Source: Clostridia bacterium | Lineage (GTDB): Bacteria; Bacillota; Clostridia; Oscillospirales; Acutalibacteraceae | DNA length: 34,293 bases | Assembly: GCA_017621885.1 (NCBI GenBank) | Contig: JAGASD010000051.1 | Coordinates: 1-34,293, forward strand | Reading direction: 5' to 3' | In this document: piece by piece, positions 2,379 through 34,293 of the stretch | Position numbering within the stretch: the first letter of the stretch is position 1 | Layout: each line of letters starts with the position of its first letter | The notes under the pieces: model-generated | Databases searched by the model: none | Seen by the model: only the letters and a program-made list of their open reading frames with translations | Told to the model about the DNA's origin: nothing | Made by a program: the position numbers and the translations under genes

Positions 2379-3281
2379 TTATTTATTGTCAATGTATCTG
2401 CAGGCTGCAAGAGCCGCAACAGCACCGTCTGCAGAAGCGGTTGTTATCTGACGGATGCTCTTCTGACGGCAGTCCCCTGCAACAAAAACACCCTCTGTTT
2501 TTGTAACACAGCTTTCACCCGAATCAAAATATCCGTTTTCGTCAAGGCCTGCAATTTCTGCAAAAGCGGAGTTTTTAGGTTCAAGACCTATAGCAACAAA
2601 TAATCCGTCAAGCTTAACCTCTTTTTCACCTGAGGTTGTGTTTAGCACAACACCCGAAAGCTCAGCCTCACCTTTAAGCTCTTTAACAGTTGCTTCAAGA
2701 ACAAATTCAACATTATCTTTATTTGAAAGAATATCAATAAGCTTTTTTTCACCCGTAAGGAAAGCAAGATTTTGGAAAACATAAACCTTTTCACACAAAT
2801 CCGAAAGCAACACGGCTTCCTGCAAAGCAGAGTTTCCTCCGCCCACAACACCGACTACCTTATCCTTAAAAAATGCGCCGTCACAAACCGCACAATAAGA
2901 AACACCGTTGCCCACAAGTGCATTTTCATTAGGAAGGCCCAACTGACGGTGATGAACACCAACAGCAATAATAACTGCCGATGCCTCATATTTTTTATTA
3001 TCTGCAAAAACGAGCTTACGGGAGCCCTCATCCATTATACCCGTAACCTTTTCCATTTCAACGTCTGCCCCCATACTGAGCACCTGATCAAGAAGCTTGT
3101 CCGCGAACTCGTTACCGCTCATTTCAGGGATGCCGGGATAATTTTCAATTTTAGGTGAAAACGTTACCTGACCGCCAAAGGTTGACTGTTCTATAACAAG
3201 AACACTTTTTGAAGCACGCAATGCGTAAAGCGCCGCGGTAAGACCCGCAGGACCCGCACCGATTACAATGATGTCATACAT
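2379..3281 (-). CDS. trxB: Thioredoxin reductase-like flavoprotein lacking the NADPH arginines
   Basis: A 300-residue FAD-dependent disulfide reductase of the low-molecular-weight thioredoxin reductase family. It has the FAD-binding GAGPAG near the N-terminus, the redox pair CAVC (C130 and C133), a second nucleotide-binding GGGNSA at about 148-153, and the C-terminal FAD segment VFVAGDC. The usual motif for the 2'-phosphate of NADPH (HRRxxxR, after the second Rossmann glycines) is missing: the strand ends VYVFQNLAFLTGEKK. Electron donor preference may therefore differ from the classical enzyme. The ATG at 3281 is chosen because a GTG at 3290 directly abuts AGGAGA. The gene lies downstream of nrdD on the same strand but beyond a terminator. 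The family is sure; the true substrate (thioredoxin, glutaredoxin or other) is not. Confidence 0.85.
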   Translation of the reverse strand: MYDIIVIGAGPAGLTAALYALRASKSVLVIEQSTFGGQVTFSPKIENYPGIPEMSGNEFADKLLDQVLSMGADVEMEKVTGIMDEGSRKLVFADNKKYEASAVIIAVGVHHRQLGLPNENALVGNGVSYCAVCDGAFFKDKVVGVVGGGNSALQEAVLLSDLCEKVYVFQNLAFLTGEKKLIDILSNKDNVEFVLEATVKELKGEAELSGVVLNTTSGEKEVKLDGLFVAIGLEPKNSAFAEIAGLDENGYFDSGESCVTKTEGVFVAGDCRQKSIRQITTASADGAVAALAACRYIDNK

Positions 3282-3320
3282 AAAATTCACTCTCCTGTAG
3301 TGAGTAATTTTGGTTTTGAA

Positions 3321-3415
3321 TGCGTAATTCGTAATGCGTAATGCGTAATTATCGGGGCGCTTTGCGCCAATTATAATGCTGACGCAGTCCCGAAATTTTG
3401 CATTTTGAATTTTTT
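3321..3415. repeat. Dispersed intergenic repeat with a GCGTAAT tandem and a GGCGC hairpin
   Basis: The stretch between trxB and the nrdD terminator begins with imperfect tandem copies of GCGTAAT (3321-3350). A hairpin GGCGC-TTT-GCGCC follows (about 3356-3368), then a tail containing CCCGAAATTTTGC and GCATTTTGAATTTT. The same hairpin frame recurs at 16938-16950, and the same tail recurs at 15537-15570. It has no coding potential and looks like one copy of a dispersed element that has collected in gene-end spacers. Confidence 0.6.
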
Positions 3416-3425
3416 ATTTTGCATT

Positions 3426-3460
3426 TGAAAAATTACCGCCCGAGAGGACGGTAATTTTCA
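3426..3460 (-). terminator. Terminator of nrdD
   Basis: Arms TGAAAAATTACCG (3426-3438) and CGGTAATTTTCA (3449-3460) pair with one bulge and extend inward through CC/GG pairs. The hairpin begins 6 bases after the nrdD stop at 3466 on the minus strand. It would limit read-through from nrdD into the trxB-like gene. Confidence 0.75.
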
Positions 3461-34106: not shown

Positions 34107-34146
34107 AAAAACTACCGAGTGTTCTTATGAATGCCCGGTAGTTTTT
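34107..34146 (+). terminator. Terminator of the acyltransferase operon
   Basis: Arms AAAACTACCG (34107-34116) and CGGTAGTTTT (34136-34145) form the base of a longer imperfect stem with a TTAT loop, followed by a T run. It lies 17 bases after the zinc-ribbon gene. Confidence 0.85.
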
Positions 34147-34150
34147 TACT

Positions 34151-34293
34151 TATTTTGCTTCAGCAAAATATATCGAATAAATCATTAGATTTATATATCG
34201 AATTACGAAGTAATATATCGAGTTTATCGTAAGATAAACATATCGACAGTCGATATATGCTAACGCATTCGATATGTGCGTCGCACTCGATAT
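34151..34293. repeat. Array of unlike short hairpins separated by the heptamer ATATCGA, with a central switch of orientation
   Basis: The constant heptamer ATATCGA appears at 34170, 34195, 34215 and 34240. Its reverse complement TCGATAT appears at 34250, 34269 and 34287, the last ending exactly at the window edge. Between them are different perfect hairpins: ATTTTGC-TTCA-GCAAAAT (34152-34169, then A), ATAAATC-ATTA-GATTTAT (34177-34194), ATTAC-GAA-GTAAT (34202-34214), GTTTATC-GTAA-GATAAAC (34222-34239), ATGC-TAAC-GCAT (34257-34268) and GTGC-GTC-GCAC (34276-34286). The switch is at CAG (34247-34249), where the two heptamer orientations themselves form a hairpin. No ORF. The array probably continues beyond the window. 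Confidence 0.85.

Follow-up and report, generated by a model that had tools for sequence, protein, structure and literature searches.

Co-variation of hairpin-array linkers with the IVP gene suggests an overlooked class of mobile elements with a putative binding protein of its own

REP sequences and their RAYT proteins are the textbook example of palindromic repeats paired with a protein, and the intervening sequences (IVS) of 23S rRNA genes are a long-standing puzzle. We know of no function for the bacterial protein family PF05635 (IVP or S23p). In Coxiella, the IVS has direct tandem heptamers upstream of the S23p open reading frame, and its mobility has been proposed earlier (PMC4990558). 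The same source describes an IVP relative as a homopentamer of four-helix bundles, and PF05635 is described as resembling Avd of diversity-generating retroelements (DGRs; PMC10053308). Gut-1 (Rfam RF01706) was described as a noncoding RNA known from environmental sequences alone (PMC2864571). In a literature search that left out most subscription papers and bioRxiv, no link of PF05635 genes to hairpin arrays or Gut-1 was recognised; a figure legend on CRISPR-associated genes names a "23S rRNA IVP" (PMC10910872), PMC2672173 contributed nothing further on arrays and IVP, nor did PMC11270868, where a term search gave no hits. Like the IVS of Leptospira and Coxiella, relatives of the element described here have a PF05635-type gene with inverted repeats on either side that can pair as a stem; unlike the IVS, many copies lie outside rRNA, many lack the protein gene, and in many arms a hairpin separates the heptamers. 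The array reported here is probably such a solo, protein-less copy, belonging to a mobile element family whose PF05635 protein would recognise its own heptamer arrays.

The window, the whole stretch of 34,293 nucleotides that was analysed, corresponds to positions 1-34293 of contig C41 in genome G000 (2.63 Mb, 64 contigs, 94% complete). Its last 142 positions, 34152-34293, hold six perfect hairpins with loops of 3-4 nt, as read from the sequence, which alternate with seven heptamer linkers, four ATATCGA followed by three TCGATAT, the orientation reversing at a CAG centre (Table 1). Both the hairpins and the heptamers had been reported in a preliminary description of this DNA and agree with the coordinates. 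Heptamers split by hairpins and reversed in orientation at the centre are the trait that we propose for IVP-associated arrays. The array is the incomplete start of a larger element, being cut by the contig end; a full ATATCGA copy comprises eight hairpins and four linkers of either orientation around CAG. In the window as well as in full copies the ATATCGA and TCGATAT arms can form a closing stem, in agreement with the earlier proposal that the two heptamer orientations pair. The copy is intergenic, following a terminator-like hairpin, and does not lie inside a 23S rRNA gene; no Rfam family matched the window. Unlike the unique, non-palindromic spacers of CRISPR-like arrays, the spacers here are palindromes that recur between copies. 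The left end of the element at 34152 was set by eye from the divergence of flanks among copies.

Table 1. Features of the array at the end of the window and of its left flank.
Feature	Position	Strand	Basis
Terminator-like hairpin and T run, directly before the element, outside it	34109..34147	+	sequence reading
Hairpin h1 (ATTTTGC-TTCA-GCAAAAT), left end of the element	34152..34169	.	sequence; copies' flanks diverge beyond
Linker ATATCGA, copy 1	34170..34176	+	sequence, genome pattern search
Hairpin h2 (ATAAATC-ATTA-GATTTAT)	34177..34194	.	sequence
Linker ATATCGA, copy 2	34195..34201	+	sequence
Hairpin h3 (ATTAC-GAA-GTAAT)	34202..34214	.	sequence
Linker ATATCGA, copy 3	34215..34221	+	sequence
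Hairpin h4 (GTTTATC-GTAA-GATAAAC)	34222..34239	.	sequence
Linker ATATCGA, copy 4	34240..34246	+	sequence
Centre CAG, flip of linker orientation	34247..34249	.	sequence
Linker TCGATAT (reverse complement of ATATCGA), copy 5	34250..34256	-	sequence
Hairpin h5 (ATGC-TAAC-GCAT)	34257..34268	.	sequence
Linker TCGATAT, copy 6	34269..34275	-	sequence
Hairpin h6 (GTGC-GTC-GCAC)	34276..34286	.	sequence
Linker TCGATAT, copy 7, at the contig end; full copies add h7, an eighth linker and h8	34287..34293	-	sequence

The preliminary description had named a unique chance stretch as the finding that would contradict it. This explanation is ruled out by a search of G000 for ATATCGA-N(6-20)-ATATCGA, which gave 30 forward and 31 reverse matches, the reversed pattern used as a control giving 0 and 1; the element is multi-copy, with arrays at 14 places on 13 contigs, and also occurs in other genera. 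Complete copies are present on contigs C7, C15, C58, and C61. Four contig ends of G000 lie inside arrays: C41 and C48, the latter at one of its ends, break off within an array, and C12 and C18 start in one. These end arrays are identical where they overlap and differ in their outer flanks, and such repeats explain the contig breaks at these points. Insertion into a hairpin loop was considered as a general rule and rejected, because just one of nine full ATATCGA copies has a long outer inverted repeat; the outer inverted repeat of the C48a copy contains a run of 16, mismatched pairs having a mean of 5.9 and a maximum of 14. In locus L016, around 2000-2280, an array splits an inverted repeat, and short interspersed repeats of the GGTGGAAGGTAC and AACGCGTxxGCGTT types flank several arrays (L009, L016, L020, L021).

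The exact core pattern was found in 4 of 99 genomes searched, namely G000 and three of the 21 others of its genus. A scan of species genomes yielded at least 114 stretches with the pattern, and among the matches listed runs with palindromic spacers were found in seven: L034 and L117 from Ruminococcus RUG14256, L085 and L095 from Oscillospiraceae RGIG7427, L133 from Oscillospiraceae RGIG7458, L084 from a Clostridiales MAG, and L109 from RGIG7203. For 106 of these at least 114 stretches a script detected no palindromic run, three of them (L024, L089, L097) being also read by eye. A search of related genomes for palindromic spacers, as suggested at the outset, thus found the array in other genera, also among other Oscillospirales, with the heptamer kept exact and the hairpins different. 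One of 12 stretches from a scan of viral contigs contains a palindromic run (L140:1427-1560, IMGVR_UViG_3300032167_007465), where the ATATCGA array lies between genes that by eye are terminase-like and portal-like; this contig is a possible vehicle for the array. In L095 two similar arrays (560-830 and 3210-3450) flank a gene that by eye is RelA/SpoT-like, and a contig filed as Gemmatimonadetes (L069:1824-1905) resembles the tandem-type arms described below in that its five tandem ATATCGA and inverted TCGATAT copies have no hairpins between them.

Within one array the stems share no sequence, as had been noted; between copies this does not hold, hairpins at homologous positions being clearly related. 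The view that constant linkers with varying but pairing stems do not arise by slippage is upheld. As the cause of the pairing, selection or a palindrome-making mechanism had been offered, and here the ATATCGA copies give a mixed picture: two-sided changes were found at 5 of 39 stem positions and one-sided changes only at 3, and 8 cells were unpaired. Among 149 distinct hairpin units, which were selected for at least 70% Watson-Crick pairing, there are 762 Watson-Crick pairs and 28 others. The excess of Watson-Crick pairs and the small number of two-sided changes would also be expected if the palindromes were kept perfect by quasipalindrome correction, that is, by template switching instead of selection on the fold. 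We consider this very improbable, as it leaves unexplained the exact heptamers, the central inversion, the pattern of 3+3 internal hairpins that recurs in L085, L109, and L117, and the link to the IVP gene. Folding, which the preliminary description had proposed for the array as one branched structure, was carried out on a full copy (L021), where the RNA fold was far better than that of shuffled sequences (z = -7.46) and corresponded only in part to the ladder that the heptamers allow. Such a fold would suit structured, Gut-1-like small RNAs with a cellular role, for example in processing or regulation together with IVP, in which the number of repeats is secondary; Gut-1 itself is filed as a small RNA, and IVS RNA in 23S rRNA is described as being cut out by RNase III (PMC4990558). 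The wobble pairs on the IVP-sense strand of the 149 units (6 G-T, 0 A-C) point the same way, although as a strand bias they were rejected for being too few and from partly related copies. A cellular RNA of this kind nevertheless appears unlikely in view of its patchy presence at an orthologous site (see below), the large turnover of hairpin sequence, and the position of the promoter-like sequence of IVP, which in several hairpin families is by eye downstream of the array.

The reading as a mobile element family rests in part on the gene that neighbours such arrays. In G017 a PF05635 gene (E 1.5e-19) is located between one full and one truncated ATATCGA array, and an IVP gene also lies beside the ATATCGA array of Ruminococcus RUG14256 (L034); these relatives thus carry the gene typical of the IVS. 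A search of the 22 genus genomes for PF05635 gave 111 matches, spread over 20 of them, while 14 control genomes gave none, and 57 of 299 phylum genomes had matches; the protein also matches the solved, uncharacterised structure 2rld. We read 90 genus IVP loci and the G017 locus, and later 15 more stretches (L344-L358). At least two hairpin units with one common heptamer occurred in 31 of the 90 genus loci, 0 of 90 shuffled loci, and 1 of 30 HTH_3 controls, according to a linker-agnostic detector that counts arrays anywhere in the locus (the array of L174 is about 1 kb away). The one control locus (L267:1850-2020) looks like another solo array, since its hairpin array, with the heptamer ATGAAGT, is not accompanied by any IVP frame found in the locus. 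The heptamers beside IVPs are ATATCGC, ATATCAC, ATATCAT, ATTTCAC, ATTTCAT, ACATCAC, ACATCAT, ACTTCAT, and the like. Of the 28 hairpin-labelled loci that have an array upstream, 27 have their last linker at a distance of 14-72 nt from the IVP start. Most hairpin-type units with IVP are composed of an R arm, an F arm, a promoter or ribosome-binding site, and IVP, where the F arm holds heptamers in one orientation and the R arm their reverse complement; some families have a second R arm after IVP, like a long terminal repeat. In the ATATCGA and ACTTCAT families the arms stand in the opposite order with respect to the gene. Upstream of IVP in L226, L228, and L239, which are unlabelled in the tree described below, several related heptamers are mixed in one array.

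No IVP was found within about 2 kb of the 14 ATATCGA places in G000, four of which run into a contig end, and the 10 IVP matches in this genome all lack an ATATCGA linker. With no cognate IVP among these 10, the solo arrays may be relics, or may depend on an IVP that the assembly lacks and be mobilised in trans. Elsewhere in this genome, L345 (G000:C17:70380-72643) contains broken IVP pieces and a duplicated upstream tandem array.

PF05635 would be the single recurrent gene of the family, each sub-family having its own heptamer. In a tree of 91 IVPs with 12 array groups, one of them of the tandem type and 33 unlabelled rows being uncounted, linker changes number 11, which is the minimum, whereas shuffled labels gave a mean of 29.9 and were as low in 0 of 200 cases. 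Addition of 22 proteins gave 13 changes (minimum 11, shuffled 44.4, 0 of 200 as low) in a tree of 113 proteins with 39 rows uncounted. The trees are based on just 104 columns, have many open forks, and contain near-copies that favour clustering; L255 was labelled ACTTCAC from an array located 173 nt downstream. The IVP of L034, from another genus, has as its nearest relative the ATATCGA IVP of G017 (L171), with which it forms one group (support 88), and the ATATCGC IVPs come next. One exception is L387, whose linker is ATTTCAC and whose nearest relatives are ATTTCAT. Five viral contigs (L398-L402) encode IVP relatives, all flanked by heptamer or hairpin arrays by eye: L399 (ATTTCAC-type) is nearest to ATTTCAC IVPs (79%), the tandem-type L401 and, weakly, L402 match a tandem-type IVP best, two unlabelled IVPs are the nearest to L400, and L398, a partial IVP with ATATCGA linkers, is nearest to the sister ATATCGC IVPs at 61% and not to ATATCGA ones. 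This co-variation of hairpin linker and gene suggests an overlooked class of mobile elements with its own binding protein, in which IVP may recognise its own heptamer in the folded array; it could also follow from joint inheritance without binding. As the sequence between neighbouring heptamers is a palindrome in the hairpin-array clade, the two arms can, according to sequence and fold prediction, pair with one another there while hairpins protrude at the junctions.

At one orthologous site compared between species, the intergenic region between a phosphatase and a NUDIX gene in 16 genomes, G017 has an array, IVP, and an array remnant, G000 a solo array, and G020 other repeats; 10 genomes have no array there, and three have another neighbour. 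The site therefore differs by presence and absence of the array, with or without IVP, and partly by repeats of other kinds. At one tRNA-Lys site, G006 and G014 carry IVPs of different families, both outer flanks being alike (L234, L258). The homology between related IVP loci ends exactly at the IVP stop codon (0/0) in the pairs L183-L198, L228-L239, L197-L206, and L225-L234, where it has to be considered that coding sequence is kept better than spacers in any case; in other related pairs it ends inside the gene or continues past it. In the ATATCGC family, the R arms before and after the F arm and IVP are 97.6% alike within a locus (n=9) and 73.7% between loci (n=108), four of the loci looking like orthologous sites and L346 having no second R arm; outside this family the likeness is 97.8% in L231 and 75% in L260. 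An overlap of four nucleotides between adjacent start and stop codons is common in operons and alone proves little. Of 50 listed downstream frames of non-tandem loci, 11 start 4 nt inside the IVP stop (L187, L223, L227, L228, L232, L239, L240, L242, L248, L249, L262), as against 0 of 19 such frames of tandem loci, and these frames, mutually different except for L223 and L239, look as if genes had been joined or swapped at the IVP stop. tRNA or tmRNA genes are present in 30 of 50 IVP loci, chosen as hairpin-type and unlabelled from 106, as against 1 of 30 controls; some of these loci are orthologous and thus not independent. The copies might be spreading to positions behind tRNA genes, tmRNA genes, and terminator structures, as well as into genes for structured RNAs. 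The IVP units of L189, L231, and L242 have ATTTCAC arrays and share downstream genes, those of L189 and L242 following a tmRNA gene; in G017 (L242) about 2.8 kb extra lie between IVP and the next shared gene. Near-identical IVP copies of G154 were considered as recent transposition and rejected, these being rRNA operons. Neither a transposition event nor a target-site duplication came to light in the analysis.

If the arrays move, the enzyme might be an ordinary transposase (RAYT/Y1 or DDE) acting in trans on a REP- or MITE-like repeat, with the IVP genes as hitch-hikers. REP/BIME sequences likewise have many solo palindromic intergenic copies and rarer copies with a partner protein, and this precedent, the excess of solo copies over IVP copies, and the presence of Y1_Tnp (PF01797) in 9 of 22 genus genomes lend the idea some appeal. 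It is weakened by G000, which has arrays at 14 places and no Y1_Tnp match in its 94% complete assembly, so that a RAYT was rejected as the mover in this genome; moreover, linker type tracks the IVP tree, IVP lies beside ATATCGA arrays in two genera, and the system differs from REP/RAYT in its heptamer-hairpin grammar and in a partner that is a four-helix bundle without known catalysis. Movement by an ordinary transposase, searched for in the form of Y1_Tnp, is improbable. Copying by a DGR-like reverse transcriptase, to which the resemblance of PF05635 to Avd might point, is also unlikely: RVT_1 was matched in just 4 of 22 genus genomes (G000, with one match, G002, G016, and G019), though G000 is among them, and not in the other 18, including G001, G006, G011, and G020, which have 9-11 IVPs each and are 82-98% complete. 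Because IVP-rich genomes can lack a reverse transcriptase and G000 has no Y1 match, IVP is most likely a binding or annealing protein. In the preferred reading as a mobile element family, it would steer DNA processes of the host at the folded arms, for example strand annealing or template switching, which is the least certain step; action at the DNA level is favoured, with the RNA level second. More broadly, we see even chances that PF05635 and its heptamer arrays constitute widespread transposable elements without a transposase, recombinase, or reverse transcriptase of their own (as far as RVT_1 and Y1_Tnp were searched), which would read a family-specific heptamer in the folded array, in some cases have LTR-like R arms, end at the IVP stop with swappable downstream genes, and target the 3' sides of tRNA and tmRNA genes and structured RNAs. 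If true, IVP/S23p would gain a function, the 23S rRNA intervening sequences would represent one niche, and the orphan RNA Gut-1 would be explained.

In many of the other IVP loci, and by eye in the majority of 29 loci from across the phylum, the gene is bracketed by tandem heptamers without hairpins, which are inverted across it. The 150-bp flanks shared 11.0 inverted 6-mers as against 4.1 in mismatched flanks for the 29 phylum loci and 14.5 versus 5.4 for 90 genus loci, compared with 5.6 versus 5.4 for 30 HTH controls. By a stricter count, 9 of 29 phylum loci, 31 of 90 genus loci, and 0 of 30 controls lay above the 99th percentile, and with 300-bp flanks 5 of 29 phylum and 16 of 86 genus loci did so; the reading of bracketing heptamers by eye is therefore more generous than the statistic. 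Four loci chosen by eye from the 29 were scanned with Rfam, of which three lie in 23S rRNA (L332, L338, L343, in RF02541) and one in RNase P RNA. By tying PF05635 and the IVS to such arrays, the questions of IVS mobility and of the protein as mover become directly testable.

The orphan Rfam motif Gut-1 likewise gains a gene partner. It resembles the arrays in having hairpins joined by GUGAAAU-type linkers and differs in that its model spans one arm only and does not match the ATATCGA element. Arms of the IVP loci L187, L219, and L231 match it above the gathering score (50 bits) and L183, L235, and L248 below it, whereas no match was obtained for the window, the full ATATCGA copies L012, L019, and L021, or L260 and L262, with nothing for L021 even at E 0.1. 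The statement that the array belongs to no named family consequently stands for the window and the full ATATCGA copies with respect to Gut-1 and has to be qualified for the sister grammar, which is partly known under this name. Gut-1 was matched in 37 of 80 family genomes, in 30 of them over the cut-off, with one weak match in the control set. An IVP frame lies within 1.5 kb of 6 of 30 Gut-1 loci and of 0 of 30 HTH controls; by eye, four of these six IVPs have their own array directly upstream (L369, L371, L387, L389), and those neighbouring Gut-1 in L368 and L374 are of other types.
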